DNA of 64,000 nt from Methanoculleus oceani (lineage in GTDB: Archaea; Halobacteriota; Methanomicrobia; Methanomicrobiales; Methanoculleaceae), in NCBI RefSeq assembly GCF_023702065.1, contig NZ_QFDM01000001.1, positions 372,001 to 436,000 on the forward strand. Reading direction: 5' to 3'. The translations under genes and the position numbers were made by a program. The notes beneath the pieces are model-generated. The model ran no database searches, was not told the DNA's origin, and saw nothing but the letters and a program-made list of their open reading frames with translations. This document shows, one piece after another, positions 14,903 through 23,841 of the stretch. Numbering within the stretch: position 1 is the stretch's first letter; the number at the start of each line of letters is the position of its first letter.

Positions 14903-14987
14903 TACGGGCGGGAAGGAGGACCGACCCCGCCCATGGCCATGACGATACGTGGAATATGCGGTTTGCAGTGGAAATGAAGGGGTATAC

Positions 14988-17650: not shown

Positions 17651-18138
17651 CCCGCCGAGGCGTGGGTGAGGATGTGCCGGATCTCGGGAATGATGATCTC
17701 CCGGGCGGCGAGCGTCACGGCCTTCGTGGATCCCGGGATGCAGAAGACCGCCCGGCCGTCGACGACGCCCGCGATCGCCCGCGAGAGGATCGCGGCGGTC
17801 CCGATCTCCTCGTAGCTCTTCAGGCGGAAGAGTTCCCCGAACCCGTCGATCGTCTTTGCGAGCAGCGGCGCGACCGCCTCGATGGTCACGTCGTCGGGGG
17901 TGAGCCCGGTGCCCCCGGTGATGATGACGCAGGTTGCACGCGAAAGCGCCGTAGAGACCTCGGAGCGGATTCGCTCCAGATCGTCGGGGATCACGGCGTA
18001 GTGGGTCACCTCGATCTCCGCGGCGGAGAGGAGGTCGATGAGTGTCTTTCCGCTGGTATCGGTCTCCGGTTTCCGGGTCGAGGAGACTGTGATGACGGCA
18101 CCGGTCACGATGAGAGGTTTAAGATGGTTACTCTCCAT
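17641..18138 (-). CDS. moaB: Molybdenum cofactor biosynthesis protein MoaB (MogA/MoaB family)
   Basis: The 165-residue protein is a molybdopterin adenylyltransferase-type enzyme. It shows the MoaB/MogA core: GAVITVSSTRKPETDTSGK, the pterin-site segment CVIITGGTGLTPDDVTIEAV, and AVFCIPGSTKAVTLA. Methanogens need this cofactor for formylmethanofuran dehydrogenase and formate dehydrogenase. The ATG at 18138 was chosen over an upstream start because the family begins near this position and a GGA lies before it. Its 3' end overlaps cgi121 by 10 bp. Confidence 0.92.
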   Translation of the reverse strand: MESNHLKPLIVTGAVITVSSTRKPETDTSGKTLIDLLSAAEIEVTHYAVIPDDLERIRSEVSTALSRATCVIITGGTGLTPDDVTIEAVAPLLAKTIDGFGELFRLKSYEEIGTAAILSRAIAGVVDGRAVFCIPGSTKAVTLAAREIIIPEIRHILTHASAGQR

Positions 18139-18210
18139 AAGATCTTCCAGTACCCCTGTACCGCGTATTTTACTTCTTTCTATCCCCTGATTGGAGGGGT
18201 TCAATCCCCG

Positions 18211-18232
18211 ACCCCTTTGTTTCGACTGGAAC
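18211..18232 (-). promoter_or_regulatory. Origin recognition box ORB-1
   Basis: On the minus strand it reads TTCCAGTCGAAACAAAGGGG followed by T, matching the archaeal ORB core (TTCCASTGGAAAC-AAGGGG) at nearly every position. Orc1/Cdc6 binds such boxes through its winged helix and AAA+ domains. It points left, opposite to ORB-2 and ORB-3. Confidence 0.8.
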
Positions 18233-18417
18233 TATGAGGGGGCGCCCGGGTCCGGGGATGTGGTCGATGCAGGAGGAGGGAGGGAATTCCCGGATCCCCG
18301 GCGGGCAGATCAGGTTCATGAGAGGTAGTTGACAGGAGCCGGGCCGGCAGAAGAACCGTCCAACCGGGGATTGTCGACCGCATCCCGGAAGGGAGGTGGT
18401 TGCGATCCATGGGTACC

Positions 18418-18637
18418 GACGATCCGACCCACCAGGACAGAAGTCCGGTTCACGCGGGAGAGACGATCCGATCCACCAGGACAGAAGTCCGGTTCCGGGA
18501 GGAGTGACGATCCGATCTTCCGGGACAAAAGTCCGGTTCACGCGGGAGAGACGATCCGATCCACCGGGACAGGGGTCCGGTTCAGGGTGAAGTGACGATC
18601 CGATCTTCCGGGACAAAAGTCCGATTCAGGGAGGGGT
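18418..18637. repeat. 44-bp tandem repeat array, five full units
   Basis: Units begin at 18418, 18462, 18506, 18550 and 18594, each exactly 44 bp, and a sixth partial unit starts at 18638. Each unit opens with GACGATCCGA and contains GGACARAAGTCCGGTTC or a one- or two-base variant; that segment includes the short inverted repeat GGAC...GTCC. Units alternate in the middle (CCACCAGG/CTTCCGGG) and at the end. There are no spacers, so this is not a CRISPR array. It lies between ORB-1 and ORB-2. Confidence 0.9.
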
Positions 18638-18712
18638 GATGATCCGATCCGGCCAGAATAATAACCGGATCTCACCTGATGGCCGATCGATCCGGCGATA
18701 AAAGATCCCGAT

Positions 18713-18862
18713 CTATCCTTTCTCCTTCCTCATTCTGCATCCTCTCCTTCCCACGTTGCACCCTTTCCTTCCCGCTCTGCACCCTTCTTTGCTCACTCCA
18801 TACTCTCCCCTTCCCCCTTTGCGCTCTTCTTCGCTTTCCTCTTACTCTTCTCCTCCTATCCT
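18713..18862. other. Pyrimidine-rich tract in the origin region
   Basis: About 150 bp are roughly 85 percent C or T on the plus strand, with quasi-repeats of the form CTTCCC-N4-TGCACCC. An A/T-richer stretch (18863-18950, including CCATAAAACTTTATATCATG) follows. Strand-asymmetric tracts of this kind can form unusual structures or melt easily. No gene is supported. Confidence 0.6.
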
Positions 18863-18946
18863 GTACACTTACCATAAAACTTTATATCATGAATTGCAGA
18901 GGTACACATGACTATCATCATCACCTTTGATTAGATGATACACCCT

Positions 18947-19007
18947 CCCGTATCATCATCACCCTCCAGTCGAAACAAAGGGGTGGGGGTGATCCCGTAT
19001 CATCATC
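18947..19007. repeat. CCCGTATCATCATC direct repeats flanking ORB-2
   Basis: The 14-bp sequence CCCGTATCATCATC occurs at 18947-18960 and 18994-19007, on either side of ORB-2. A shorter TATCATCATC lies at 18913-18922. They may be auxiliary origin sites or remnants of a duplication. Confidence 0.6.
18964..18984 (+). promoter_or_regulatory. Origin recognition box ORB-2
   Basis: The box reads CTCCAGTCGAAACAAAGGGG followed by T and a further GGGGG run, which resembles the G-string of extended ORB elements. It points toward orc1. Confidence 0.8.
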
Positions 19008-19079
19008 CTGATCTGCTCCCCGATACCATTCTCATCCTGAGCAGTTCATCGCTATTCCGCCGGCAGTCAACGGCGCCTC

Positions 19080-19101
19080 GTTCCACTGGAAACGAAGGGG
19101 T
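19080..19101 (+). promoter_or_regulatory. Origin recognition box ORB-3, next to the orc1 promoter
   Basis: GTTCCACTGGAAACGAAGGG followed by GT is essentially the archaeal ORB consensus. It ends about 20 bp before the TATA-like element of orc1, so Orc1 bound here could also repress its own gene. Confidence 0.82.
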
Positions 19102-19120
19102 TATCAGTCTCGAAAACAAT

Positions 19121-19129
19121 CATATTAAG
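19121..19129 (+). promoter_or_regulatory. TATA-like element of orc1
   Basis: AATCATATTAAGAG lies about 55 bp before the orc1 ATG at 19180. It predicts a start near 19150 and a leader of about 30 nt containing GGTGA. Confidence 0.4.
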
Positions 19130-19179
19130 AGTCCTCGACACGAAAATTTCCTGTCCTGGCAACCCCCTCCGGTGACATT

Positions 19180-20463
19180 ATGTCGGACGATAAAACAAAC
19201 CCAATGGGACTATTCAAGAAATACCTGACCAATAGACGTATATTTAAGAACAGGGAAGTGCTCCGACACAGTTATCGTCCCCAGATTCTTCCTCACCGGA
19301 AACCGCAGATCGACGAACTCGCCTCCATCCTTGCCCCTGCCCTCACGAACGAGACCCCTTCAAATATCCTCATCTACGGTAAGACCGGGACCGGGAAGAC
19401 TGCGTCGGCCCGGTATGTGGGAACGGAGCTCGAGAACGCCAGCGCACTCGCCGGGACGAAGTGCAGGATCGTCCACCTCAACTGCGAAGTGATCGACACC
19501 CAGTACCGGGTCCTCGCCCAGATCGCGAACGGCCTCGACGATGCCGACGAGCACCCGAGCGACAGCACGAGGAACCACATCCCCATGACCGGGTGGCCGA
19601 CCGACCAGGTCTACATGGAGCTGAAGAACCAGCTCGAGAGCAGCGGCGGGGTCATGGTCATCATCCTCGACGAGATCGACAAACTCGTCAAGAAGAGCGG
19701 CGACGACACCCTCTACAACCTCACCCGGATCAACTCCGACCTCAAGTTCGCGAAGGTCAGCATCATCGGGATCTCGAACGACCTCCGGTTCACCGACTTC
19801 CTGGACCCCCGCGTCCTCTCTTCCCTTTCCGAGGAGGAGATCGTCTTCCCCCCCTACAACGCCCCGCAACTCTGCGACATCCTCCAGCAGAGGGCCGAGC
19901 TGGCGTTCGTCGAGGGCGCGCTCGGCGAGACGGTCATCCCGCTCTGTGCGGCACTCGCGGCGCAGGAGCACGGCGACGCCCGGCGGGCGCTCGACCTCCT
20001 CCGGGTCTCGGGCGAACTCGCGGACCGCGAGAACGCCACGGGCGTGGATGAGAAGCACGTCCGGATGGCCCAGGAGAAGATCGAGACCGACAGCATGGTG
20101 GAGTGCATCTCCACCCTCCCGACCCAGAGCAAGGCGGTCCTCTACGCGATGCTGATCCTCGAGCAGATGGGCAAACGGATCTTCACGAGCGGCGAGGTCA
20201 CGGTGGTCTACCGCGAGATCGCCCGGATCATCGATCTCGACGTCCTGACGCACCGCCGGATCACGGACCTCATCTCCGAGCTCAACATGCTCGGCGTCAT
20301 CAACACCCGGGTCATCTCGCGGGGCCGCTACGGCCGGACGAAGGAGATGTGGTTCGACGCAACGACGAGTAAGATCGAAGAGGTCGTTACGCGCGACCCG
20401 AGGCTCGACGATGAGAGACTTAAAAAGCTCGACATCAACCGCTTAAGAGCAATGTTCAGGTGA
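19180..20463 (+). CDS. cdc6: Orc1/Cdc6-type replication initiator
   Basis: The 427-residue AAA+ protein binds origin recognition boxes and loads the MCM helicase. It has Walker A YGKTGTGKTAS (about residues 66-76), Walker B VIILDEID, sensor 1 IGISNDLRF and sensor 2 GDARRALDLLR. A C-terminal winged-helix domain (about 320-427, including VVYREIARIIDLDVLTHRRI) inserts into ORB DNA. Five ORB-like sites within about 3 kb on both sides mark this as an origin-linked initiator. It is followed after 4 bp by an Lrp-type regulator gene. Confidence 0.96.
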   Translation: MSDDKTNPMGLFKKYLTNRRIFKNREVLRHSYRPQILPHRKPQIDELASILAPALTNETPSNILIYGKTGTGKTASARYVGTELENASALAGTKCRIVHLNCEVIDTQYRVLAQIANGLDDADEHPSDSTRNHIPMTGWPTDQVYMELKNQLESSGGVMVIILDEIDKLVKKSGDDTLYNLTRINSDLKFAKVSIIGISNDLRFTDFLDPRVLSSLSEEEIVFPPYNAPQLCDILQQRAELAFVEGALGETVIPLCAALAAQEHGDARRALDLLRVSGELADRENATGVDEKHVRMAQEKIETDSMVECISTLPTQSKAVLYAMLILEQMGKRIFTSGEVTVVYREIARIIDLDVLTHRRITDLISELNMLGVINTRVISRGRYGRTKEMWFDATTSKIEEVVTRDPRLDDERLKKLDINRLRAMFR

Positions 20464-20467
20464 AGCC

Positions 20468-20959
20468 ATGAATGAAAAGGACCGTATCCTCCTCCATCTC
20501 CTGGAGGAGAACTGCCGCACCCCGTTAAGCGAGCTCGCGGTGCTGGCCGAGGTGAGCGAGCAGGATGCAAAGGACCGGATCGGCCGGCTGGAAGCGTCCG
20601 GCGCCATCCGCCGTTACGGAGCGGTCGTCGACTGGGAGCAGGCCGGCAACGGGAATGTCGCCGCGGTGATCGAGCTGAAGGTCTCGCCTGAGCGGGACTT
20701 CGGCTACGACCGGATCGCGGAACGGATCTCCCGGTTCCCGCAGGTCCGGTCGCTCCGGCTCATGACCGGGACCTACGATCTCCAGCTCCTGGTCACCGGG
20801 CCGAGCATGCACGAGATCGCGCGGTTCGTAGCCGAGCAGATCGCCCCGATGGACCGGATCCGTGAGACGGCGACGCACATTATCATGAAGACCTACAAGG
20901 AGAACGGCACCACCTTCGCCGAGCGCGAAGAGGTCGAGCGTCTCCCCTACTCGTTCTGA
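20468..20959 (+). CDS. Lrp/AsnC-family transcriptional regulator
   Basis: The 163-residue protein has an N-terminal winged helix-turn-helix (NEKDRILLHLLEENCRTPLS, then DRIGRLEASGAIRRYGAVVD) and a C-terminal RAM ligand-binding domain (VAAVIELKVSPERDFGYDRI, then RLMTGTYDLQLLVTGPSMHE). Lrp proteins usually sense amino acids. The gene precedes an aminotransferase gene by 11 bp, a pairing seen in other methanogens, so it probably regulates amino-acid metabolism including that gene. Confidence 0.92.
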   Translation: MNEKDRILLHLLEENCRTPLSELAVLAEVSEQDAKDRIGRLEASGAIRRYGAVVDWEQAGNGNVAAVIELKVSPERDFGYDRIAERISRFPQVRSLRLMTGTYDLQLLVTGPSMHEIARFVAEQIAPMDRIRETATHIIMKTYKENGTTFAEREEVERLPYSF

Positions 20960-20970
20960 GGTGAGGTGCG

Positions 20971-22131
20971 ATGAGGGACTTCGTCTCGGAACGGGCCCGT
21001 GCCATACCCCCTTCGGGCATCAGGCGGTTCTTCGACATCGCCCAGACGATGGAGGACGTCATATCCCTGGGTGTCGGCGAACCGGACTTCGTGACCCCCT
21101 GGTGCGTCTGCGAGGCATCCATCTACTCCATCGAGCAGGGGTCGACCGCCTACACCTCGAACAAGGGGACGCCCCAGCTCCGGGGCGCCATCAGCCGCTA
21201 CCTCGACACGCGGTTTAACACCCGCTACGACCCTGAAGCGGAGATCATCGTGACCTGCGGCGTCTCGGAAGCCGCCGATATCGCCATCCGGGCCGTCGTC
21301 GACCCGGGCGACGAGGTGCTGGTGGCGGAGCCGAGCTACGTCTCCTACACCCCCTGCGTCTCCCTCGCCGGCGGTATCCCGGTGCCCGTCCCCTGCCGGG
21401 CGGAGGACGAGTTCCGGCTGACGGCCGACGCGCTCGCGGAACGCATCACCCCGCGGACGAAGGTTCTGATCGCAAACTTCCCGAACAACCCTACCGGCGG
21501 GGTGATGCAGGAGGCGGACTGGCGCGGGATCGCCGATCTCCTGGTCGACCACGACCTTCTCCTCATCAGCGACGAGGTCTACGCCGAACTCACCTACGCC
21601 GGCGACCACTTCTCGCCGGCGACGATCCCCGGGCTCTTTGAGCGGACGATCACCTTGAACGGGTTCTCGAAGGCCTTCGCCATGACCGGGTGGCGGATCG
21701 GCTACCTCTGTGCCCCGCCGGCAATCGCCGCGGCGGCCTTGAAGATCCACCAGTACGTCGCGCTCTGCGCCCCCGTCATGGGACAGATCGCGGCCTACGA
21801 GGCGCTCAGGATCGGAGAAGCCGAGAAGGACGCCATGGTCAGGGAGTACCGGCTCCGGCGGAACCTCTTCGTCGACGGGCTGAACAAACTCGGTCTCGCC
21901 TGCCACGTCCCGAAGGGTGCGTTCTATGCCTTCCCCTCGGTGGAGAGCACCGGCATGACCGACGTCGAGTTTGCAGAAGCGCTCCTCCGCGAGCAGCATG
22001 TGGCCGTCGTCCCCGGGAGCGTCCTCGGATCTTCCGGTACCGGGCACGTACGGTGCGCCTACGCGGTCTCGCGGGACGATCTCAAGGAGGCACTCTCCCG
22101 GATGGGGGCCTTCCTGGAATCGATAAAATAA
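20971..22131 (+). CDS. Class I/II pyridoxal-phosphate aminotransferase
   Basis: The 386-residue fold-type I enzyme has ISLGVGEPDFVTPW at the N-terminus, the substrate loop NFPNNPTGGVM, the PLP-phenol contact SDEVYAEL, and the PLP Lys in [17 protein letters not shown]. It most resembles archaeal aspartate/aromatic aminotransferases; the exact substrate pair is not resolvable here. It is 11 bp downstream of the Lrp-type gene, its probable regulator. A second related aminotransferase lies at 55661-56791. Confidence 0.92.
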   Translation: MRDFVSERARAIPPSGIRRFFDIAQTMEDVISLGVGEPDFVTPWCVCEASIYSIEQGSTAYTSNKGTPQLRGAISRYLDTRFNTRYDPEAEIIVTCGVSEAADIAIRAVVDPGDEVLVAEPSYVSYTPCVSLAGGIPVPVPCRAEDEFRLTADALAERITPRTKVLIANFPNNPTGGVMQEADWRGIADLLVDHDLLLISDEVYAELTYAGDHFSPATIPGLFERTITLNGFSKAFAMTGWRIGYLCAPPAIAAAALKIHQYVALCAPVMGQIAAYEALRIGEAEKDAMVREYRLRRNLFVDGLNKLGLACHVPKGAFYAFPSVESTGMTDVEFAEALLREQHVAVVPGSVLGSSGTGHVRCAYAVSRDDLKEALSRMGAFLESIK

Positions 22132-22190
22132 AAATAACTCCATAAATATCTTCAAAAGAAAATCGAAACTCTTTTATGGAATATCCCTGC
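22132..22190. other. AT-rich stretch, possible DNA unwinding element
   Basis: About 60 bp are clearly A/T-rich in a GC-rich chromosome, including AATAAAAATAACTCCATAAA, and lie directly before ORB-4. Such a stretch could be the melting site of a second origin half, or simply a terminator region of the aminotransferase gene. Confidence 0.45.
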
Positions 22191-22237
22191 CCGGGCAACT
22201 GATAGTTTGATGTCCGACAGGAGAATGACGGGCGGAC

Positions 22238-22259
22238 AACCCCTTTATTTCCACTGGAG
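22238..22259 (-). promoter_or_regulatory. Origin recognition box ORB-4
   Basis: On the minus strand it reads CTCCAGTGGAAATAAAGGGG followed by TT, one substitution from the ORB core. It points left, opposite to ORB-5. Confidence 0.75.
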
Positions 22260-22456
22260 ATGTGGATTTATTCAGGGATTTTGGGTGCCCGGGATCCCGT
22301 CGCGCTCGTATCGGGCATACGTATCCTGTCCTCCAAACCCCGGGCAGATCTTCGGGTTCGCATCCGCGCTCCGGCAAACGATCTGATTACAGATCGCCAT
22401 GCCGCTCCGGAGGGAAAAACTCCAAGCGATGGTCTGGAATACCCATGAAATGAAAA

Positions 22457-22477
22457 TTCCACTGGAAACAAAGGGGT
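22457..22477 (+). promoter_or_regulatory. Origin recognition box ORB-5
   Basis: TTCCACTGGAAACAAAGGGG followed by T is an almost perfect archaeal ORB. It forms a diverging pair with ORB-4, about 200 bp apart. I see no gene in 22478-22790. Confidence 0.8.
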
Positions 22478-22809
22478 CCAGATCCCGATGTCAACCGTGC
22501 CGGGGGATGATCCGCGGATACCAGGATTGATATATGATGACCGCTGTCCGCGAAAACGTGGAATAGACGGGAATATCGAAGTGCAACCCCGGAGACACCT
22601 GCCCGGGAGTCCGCGCCTGCCGGGAGATGTGGCCGACCACGCGGGATGCCCTCTGTTGCCCGCGCCCCGGGCGATCCCGCCAGCGCTCCCTCCTGCGGGC
22701 GCAAAACGGCGTTGAGCGAGCGGTGCGGGGGCTGCCGGAACCCTGTTGCCTTTAAGCGGGGTGACTGCTCTCCCGGCATCACATTGTAACGTTTATCACC
22801 CAGTATCGC

Positions 22810-22827
22810 TCTATCCTACTTGATAGA
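22810..22827. promoter_or_regulatory. Palindromic operator candidate before purA
   Basis: TCTATC-N6-GATAGA is a perfect inverted repeat ending 3 bp before the purA ATG. It follows a TATA-like GTTTATCA (22791-22798), so it covers the predicted transcription start, where a bound repressor would block polymerase. Confidence 0.45.
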
Positions 22828-22830
22828 ACA

Positions 22831-23841
22831 ATGAGTTGTACTATTATCGTCGGCGGGTTCTTTGGTGACGAGGGAAAAGGAAAGATCGTAGCCCACATCG
22901 CTCACCAGGACAGACCATCCATCATCTCCCGGGGCGGCGTCGGCCCGAACGCCGGGCATACCGTCTGTATCGGAGAGAAAGAGTACGGTGTCAGGATGGT
23001 CCCCTCGGGGTTCGTCTACCCGGAAGCGGCCCTCATGGTCGGGAGCGGCGTGCTCGTCGACCCCAGGGTCTTCCTGCGGGAAGTCGACCTGCTCGGCGTC
23101 CGGGGCAGGATCTTTGTCGACGGGCGGTGCGGCATCATCGAAGAGGATCATATCGCCCGGGACAGGGCGAGCGAGCACCTCAGGGATAAGATCGGGAGCA
23201 CCGGAACCGGGTGCGGCCCGGCCAACGCGGATCGCGTCCTCCGGACGTCCCGGCAGGCGAAAGACGTCCCGGAGCTTGCGGGGTTCATCACCGACGTGGC
23301 GCAGGACGTCAATGGCGCCCTGGACCGGGATGAGGTGGTCCTCCTCGAGGGGACCCAGGGCTTCGGGATCTCGCTCTACTTCGGGACCTATCCGTTCGTG
23401 ACGAGCAAAGATACCTCCGCCTCGCAGATCGCCGCCGACAACGGCGTCGGCCCGACCCGGATCGACGATGTCATCGTCGTCTTCAAGGCCTACCCGACCC
23501 GGGTCGGCGAGGGTCCCTTCTCCACCGAGATGTCGGCGGAGCGGTCGCACGAACTCGGGATCGAAGAGTTCGGCACCGTCACCCATCGCCAGCGCCGCAT
23601 CGGCACCTGGGACGGGAAGATGGCCCGTTACTCGGCGATGATCAACGGATGCACCCAGGCGGCGATCACCGGCATCGACCGGATCGACCCGGCCTGTTTC
23701 GGCGCGACAGACTACGACCGGCTGACCCGGAAGGCGAAGGACTTCATCGCACAGGCCGAAAGAGACATCGGCAAACCCGTCACCCTGATCTCGACGGGTC
23801 CCGAGATGTCCCAGATCATCGATCTGCGGGGAGAACGATGA
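22831..23841 (+). CDS. purA: Adenylosuccinate synthetase
   Basis: The enzyme joins IMP and aspartate using GTP, the first committed step to AMP. The 336 residues match the compact archaeal form. The GTP loop is GGFFGDEGKGKIVAHIA (about residues 8-24), with the catalytic Asp in it. RGGVGPNAGHT and the IMP-site GSTGTGCGPANADRVLR follow, then EGTQGFGISLYFGTYPFVTS. Its stop codon overlaps the start of the trm112-like gene (ATGA). The closing STGPEMSQIIDL is typical. Confidence 0.95.
   Translation: MSCTIIVGGFFGDEGKGKIVAHIAHQDRPSIISRGGVGPNAGHTVCIGEKEYGVRMVPSGFVYPEAALMVGSGVLVDPRVFLREVDLLGVRGRIFVDGRCGIIEEDHIARDRASEHLRDKIGSTGTGCGPANADRVLRTSRQAKDVPELAGFITDVAQDVNGALDRDEVVLLEGTQGFGISLYFGTYPFVTSKDTSASQIAADNGVGPTRIDDVIVVFKAYPTRVGEGPFSTEMSAERSHELGIEEFGTVTHRQRRIGTWDGKMARYSAMINGCTQAAITGIDRIDPACFGATDYDRLTRKAKDFIAQAERDIGKPVTLISTGPEMSQIIDLRGER

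Follow-up and report, generated by a model that had tools for sequence, protein, structure and literature searches.

Two origin recognition boxes (ORBs) lying beyond the orc1/cdc6 gene of Methanoculleus oceani, ORB-4 and ORB-5, are genuine, long-conserved predicted initiator docking sites in the genus Methanoculleus. From sequence comparison and analogy with known origins, and with slightly less than even confidence, they are interpreted as an origin-linked distal Orc1-binding module that is most likely regulatory, an initiator sink beside a single origin core. A complete second origin at this position is unlikely.

Little is understood of how archaea stop an origin from firing a second time, and the one tested downstream ORB sink found in the literature belongs to a haloarchaeal origin. 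A conserved two-box module next to what is probably a methanogen's main origin offers a small, well-bounded target for the sink idea, and Methanoregula, which naturally lacks the module, serves as a comparison. A second start point of replication at ORB-4/5 would also be worth knowing if it existed, but the evidence from sequence is against it. No description of the origins or ORB arrangement of this genus was found in the literature searched, though one may still exist. ORBs on both sides of orc1/cdc6 are already known from other archaea, having been published for haloarchaea (PMC3528665; PMC3936714) and for a Methanomassiliicoccales species (PMC4153887).

The orc1 locus and its boxes

The window, meaning the whole stretch of 64,000 nucleotides that was analysed, comes from a 2.46-Mb genome in three contigs with three Orc1/Cdc6 homologues. 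An earlier, sequence-only reading had placed this DNA in the Methanomicrobiales, which is borne out by the closest relatives of the window's Orc1, those of Methanoculleus. The genes run in the order KH protein, Hel308-type helicase, MoaB-like gene (minus strand), orc1, lrp/AsnC regulator, aminotransferase and purA, where the KH and MoaB-like labels are putative and taken from a reading of the translations. A known RNA gene was discarded as a candidate, as there is no Rfam match in 18000-23000. The features of the locus, in window coordinates, are:

14964..14983, plus strand: ORB-0 (19-base core 14964-14982), one mismatch, with 5 bp between its end and the helicase ATG
18211..18230, minus strand: ORB-1, TCCAGTCGAAACAAAGGGGT then CGGGG, left arm of the proposed origin core
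18874..18933: candidate unwinding element, the most AT-rich 60-mer between ORB-1 and ORB-2, 70% A+T
18965..18984, plus strand: ORB-2, TCCAGTCGAAACAAAGGGGT then GGGGG, right arm of the proposed origin core
19082..19101, plus strand: ORB-3, without an extended G-string, located 98 bp upstream of the orc1 start
19180..20463, plus strand: orc1/cdc6, 427 aa, with Cdc6 lid and winged-helix domains
20468..20959, plus strand: lrp/AsnC-type regulator gene
20971..22131, plus strand: class I/II aminotransferase gene
22123..22190: AT-rich stretch that takes in the last aminotransferase codons and lies outside the ORB-4/5 pair
22239..22258, minus strand: ORB-4, TCCAGTGGAAATAAAGGGGT, 19-base core 22240-22258, extended to 22239-22258 by the T of GGGGT
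22458..22477, plus strand: ORB-5, TCCACTGGAAACAAAGGGGT, 19-base core 22458-22476
22831..23841, plus strand: purA (adenylosuccinate synthetase), the next gene past the ORB-4/5 cluster, a neighbour that is not constant in relatives

ORB-4 and ORB-5 are exact matches to the 19-base ORB pattern TCCASTSGAAAYRAAGGGG, although this pattern was built from the boxes of the earlier reading and its matches there are thus no independent test. Across the whole 2.46-Mb genome the pattern has five exact matches, all within window positions 18212-22476. When up to three mismatches are allowed, six sites are seen in the window against 0.13 expected from shuffles, and a reversed-pattern control finds two matches in total in the whole genome. 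Both boxes are also matched exactly by the published Methanomicrobia ORB motif of Ori-Finder 2, TCCA[GC]T[GT]GAAA[CT][AG]A[AT]GGGGT, which derives from other genomes and is independent of the present window. The shuffle, genome-wide and reversed-pattern counts rule out chance repeats, and the identification of the two boxes as real ORB-type sites stands on both the pattern and the published motif. Orc1 presumably binds at both. The layout originally described is likewise confirmed: ORB-4 and ORB-5 diverge, with their G-strings facing outward and 218 bp apart, and together with the upstream cluster they bracket the orc1-lrp-aminotransferase block, a 3-kb segment between the end of ORB-3 (19100) and the start of ORB-4 (22240).

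ORB-like sites are found elsewhere as well. ORB-0, at the start of the Hel308-type helicase gene, is kept in Methanoculleus, and several other Methanomicrobiales have ORB-like sites 27-42 bp before this gene; ORB-0 may be an Orc1 operator. A lone one-mismatch ORB (TCCAGTGGAAATCAAGGGG) lies at G000:C1:944365 (L099:4366-4384), between convergent SET-domain and hypothetical genes and 4-7 kb from the second orc1. It is conserved in many Methanoculleus genomes, including the complete genome G008 (L105:12896).

The upstream origin core

We read positions 18212-19100, upstream of orc1, as one origin core in which ORB-1 is inverted with respect to ORB-2 and ORB-3 around an AT-rich element. Cumulative GC skew has its minimum at the orc1 locus in G008 (40 sampled 20-kb stretches), a weak contrast just above the 95% level of shuffles and without resolution between clusters 3 kb apart. 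The DNA from ORB-1 to the core's AT-rich element contains a 44-bp tandem repeat of 5.3 copies at 18418-18650, which is followed by a pyrimidine-rich tract at 18700-18830. Many relatives carry repeats of 41-50 bp at the same place in the core, with different unit sequences.

In oriC1 of Haloarcula hispanica, an AT-rich region between two inverted ORBs constitutes the minimal origin, and mutation of either G-string abolishes it (PMC3936714). This haloarchaeal design matches the ORB-1/ORB-2 core. ORB-4/5 share its inverted geometry and spacing but lack both the extended G-string and the AT-rich interval.

ORB-4/5 as a second origin

The sequence-only reading had proposed either two origins served by one initiator or a bipartite origin. 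The former, in which ORB-4/5 would be a second, self-sufficient origin using the same Orc1, is improbable. It draws on the geometry of the pair: oriC1-type origins have at least two inverted ORBs, an arrangement that ORB-4/5 show in the Methanoculleus group only, and the outward G-strings are spaced at 218 bp, compared with 200-236 bp in most probable haloarchaeal oriC1 pairs. A very AT-rich 60-mer also adjoins ORB-4 in the window. Base composition within the pair argues in the opposite direction. The maximum A+T content of a 60-mer is 0.67-0.78 between ORB-1 and ORB-2 in every Methanoculleus-group locus with both boxes, whereas it is 0.48-0.62 between ORB-4 and ORB-5. Because the two intervals differ in length, the comparison was redone at equal lengths, and the core interval is the more AT-rich one in 19/19 genomes (p ~1e-4, which overstates the evidence as the genomes are related). 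An AT-rich element between the inverted boxes is absent at ORB-4/5 in all 19.

The G-strings differ as well. An extended G-string, essential in H. hispanica oriC1, is found on ORB-1 (GGGGTCGGGG) and ORB-2 (GGGGTGGGGG) and is missing from ORB-0, 3, 4 and 5, a contrast that holds within Methanoculleus-type loci, given that not all ORB-1/2 sites in the order have the extended form. G-rich sequence follows GGGGN at none of 24 plus-strand ORB-5 sites and at 1 of 37 ORB-4 sites. Moreover, the inverted geometry is not conserved beyond the Methanoculleus group, and some lineages have the upstream core but no trace of the cluster.

The AT-rich stretch reported beside the pair is real, the 60-mer at 22123 having 80% A+T (top 0.01% of the window). 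It lies, however, on the outer side of ORB-4, and its AT-richness is not kept in all relatives, which disqualifies 22132-22190 as a conserved unwinding element. Judged by eye, 22123-22190 may be terminator or promoter sequence. A hairpin TGTCCG...CGGACA before ORB-4, also picked out by eye, was rejected as it is disrupted in relatives. Also preceding ORB-4 is TGTCCGACA (22212-22220), the GTCYGAC form of which recurs there in most relatives, as if bound by another factor.

Conservation and descent

ORB sites are present in 40/40 family genomes searched, that of M. oceani included. The downstream module was surveyed in 77 loci with enough sequence past the aminotransferase gene. The (-,+) pair of ORB-4 and ORB-5 occurs in 24/24 Methanoculleus-group loci, a count that allows up to two mismatches in ORB-5 and takes in L033 (Methanoculleus sp. 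FWC-SCC3), where the boxes are ~850 bp apart. In this last locus, ~850 bp of extra DNA separates ORB-4 from ORB-5 (+3078 to +4123 from orc1). An alignment with 27 relatives resolves ORB-4 as 23 near-invariant columns (22239-22261) amid drifting flanks. In Methanofollis, Methanogenium and other lineages, ORB-4 is either the sole downstream box or one of several, the others mostly sharing its strand, with up to four boxes in L065 and L072, while the plus orientation of ORB-5 is restricted to the Methanoculleus group.

Downstream ORBs were not found in 38 of the 77 loci. Every Methanoregula, Methanolinea, Methanocalculus and Methanocorpusculaceae locus surveyed has none and keeps the upstream boxes. 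A three-mismatch hit in L077 lies inside purA and was for that reason put down to chance. The gap between the aminotransferase gene and purA is ~100-220 bp in most Methanoregula loci versus ~620-700 bp in most Methanoculleus. Both clusters are retained in all Methanoculleus-group relatives. Loss in close relatives, named in advance as evidence against the proposal, is not seen within the genus and is seen at the family level.

On a tree of Orc1, Lrp and the aminotransferase (a quick method, with support of 94 for the (-,+) group and the root not fixed), presence or absence of the module requires two changes and the (-,+) form one. We therefore read ORB-4 as probably the older element and plus-strand ORB-5 as a feature of the Methanoculleus group, with two gains also possible. 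A recent arrival of the pair was rejected, since on the tree it is kept by descent.

A proposed distal regulatory module and its alternatives

As a module beyond the orc1-lrp-aminotransferase operon, ORB-4/5 would hold Orc1 near the origin, leaving less free Orc1 to occupy the core. Situated 3 kb from the core, the module would be copied almost at once upon origin firing; the holding sites would thereby be doubled and re-firing discouraged. The restraining effect is proposed by analogy with oriC2D of H. hispanica, and its timing is inferred. Because the module has just two boxes, its effect may be slight, which limits confidence in the sink reading.

The closest precedent is oriC2D of H. hispanica, a 722-bp region with 11 ORBs directly after cdc6E at the secondary origin oriC2 (PMC3936714). 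It has no origin activity itself and lowers the activity of oriC2 in a manner graded by box number, a negative effect demonstrated by deletion and plasmid assays; a homologue has three ORBs (PMC3936714). Like oriC2D, ORB-4/5 are set apart from the core by the nearby gene of the initiator that would bind them. Unlike oriC2D, with its 11 ORBs, they number two in Methanoculleus (up to four in L065 and L072) and follow a three-gene operon at an oriC1-type locus. A similar arrangement in a methanogen is that of 'Ca. Methanomethylophilus alvus', where an ORB pair lies on either side of the main initiator gene, orc1/cdc6.1 (PMC4153887, Table 2), although these bracket orc1 alone and are ~1.9 kb apart, compared with a three-gene block and 3.1 kb in Methanoculleus. 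A further comparison is with datA of E. coli, a DnaA-titrating site (cited in PMC3936714). The likeness is one of working principle only, namely initiation held down by initiator-binding sites that are not part of the core; initiator and sites are unrelated. In E. coli, datA is located far from oriC, and the ORB-4/5 module is 3 kb from the core.

Several observations favour the regulatory module: the confinement of the genome's five exact ORBs to this locus, the near-invariance of ORB-4 amid drifting flanks and its retention by descent across several lineages, the contrasts in A+T content and G-string between core and pair, and the retention of the core in every lineage without the module. An inverted pair is evidently not required, as other lineages have one to four same-strand boxes here, and ORB-4 persists where the next gene is not purA. 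The reading is weakened by the small number of boxes, two compared with 11 in oriC2D and perhaps too few against the Orc1 pool, by the lineages that do well without the module, and by the origin-like resemblance of the outward-facing 218-bp pair to probable haloarchaeal oriC1 pairs. No weight was given to the constant distance from ORB-3 to ORB-4 or to the roughly symmetrical placement of ORB-0 and ORB-4 on either side of the core, both being set by gene lengths.

The bipartite origin of the earlier reading survives in so far as ORB-4/5 could be distal accessory boxes on one core, a form that the sequence analysis does not set apart from a regulatory sink. Orc1 on ORB-4/5 would then act positively with the upstream core, perhaps through a loop over the 3-kb operon, and would aid MCM loading at the core AT-rich element. 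The joint occurrence of both clusters in 24/24 Methanoculleus-group loci at near-constant distance agrees with this, as do the G-strings of ORB-4 and, on the other side, ORB-0, which face the core. Yet conserved gene lengths account for the constant distance, ORB-5 can shift by ~850 bp (L033) and the module is absent in lineages keeping the core, so that an extended origin is rather unlikely. Somewhat more doubtful is a transcriptional role, whereby Orc1 at ORB-4/5 would affect the end of the orc1-lrp-aminotransferase transcript or an adjacent promoter, which ORB-3 and ORB-0 may parallel at the orc1 and helicase promoters. In most loci ORB-3 occupies position -98 relative to the orc1 start, ORB-0 is close before the helicase start, and most relatives have T-rich or TATA-like sequence, visible by eye, in the gap from the aminotransferase stop to ORB-4. 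The boxes vary in number and orientation, however, and the conserved lone ORB at C1:944365 lies between convergent genes rather than at a promoter. An operator of purA specifically was rejected, since ORB-4 stays while the downstream gene changes (flavodoxin-type in L028, DUF475/TerC in L029, others in L070 and L085). That ORB-4/5 are a remnant of an older, larger origin without present role would fit their loss at least twice, or absence, in about half of the loci, but the near-invariance of ORB-4 in the genus amid drifting flanks points to continuing selection and makes this highly improbable.

Distal ORB-like sites in other Halobacteriota

In most of the probable haloarchaeal oriC1 loci, so classed from their Orc1 and from the form of their ORBs, the ORBs are inverted and carry extended G-strings (GGGGTGGGGG) that face outward. 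Over 24 such loci, the interval 2.4-4.7 kb past the orc1 match contains 23 ORB-like sites (up to three mismatches), distributed over 16 of the 24; the interval was chosen after the first seven loci, so that the result is partly post hoc. The reversed pattern gives no match in this interval, and 158 kb of other flanking sequence contains 7 sites. Among loci added later, 12 of 17 have a distal ORB-like site.

It is conceivable, if unlikely, that oriC1 in Halobacteriota generally (here Methanomicrobiales, haloarchaea and some Methanosarcinales) has as its third component a distal ORB module 2.4-4.7 kb beyond orc1, without extended G-strings, which acts as a replication-timed initiator sink. Six of the probable haloarchaeal loci (L144, L145, L161, L165, L168 and L169) have two ORB-like boxes in (-,+) arrangement, separated by 54-57 bp and lying 2.6-3.8 kb past the orc1 match; these boxes lack the extended G-string of the core pair. 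In L148, L149, L177, L147 and L179, which are probably Methanosarcinales, single weaker ORB-like sites (one to two mismatches to a relaxed motif, with none in the reversed control) occur 3.5-4.3 kb beyond orc1.
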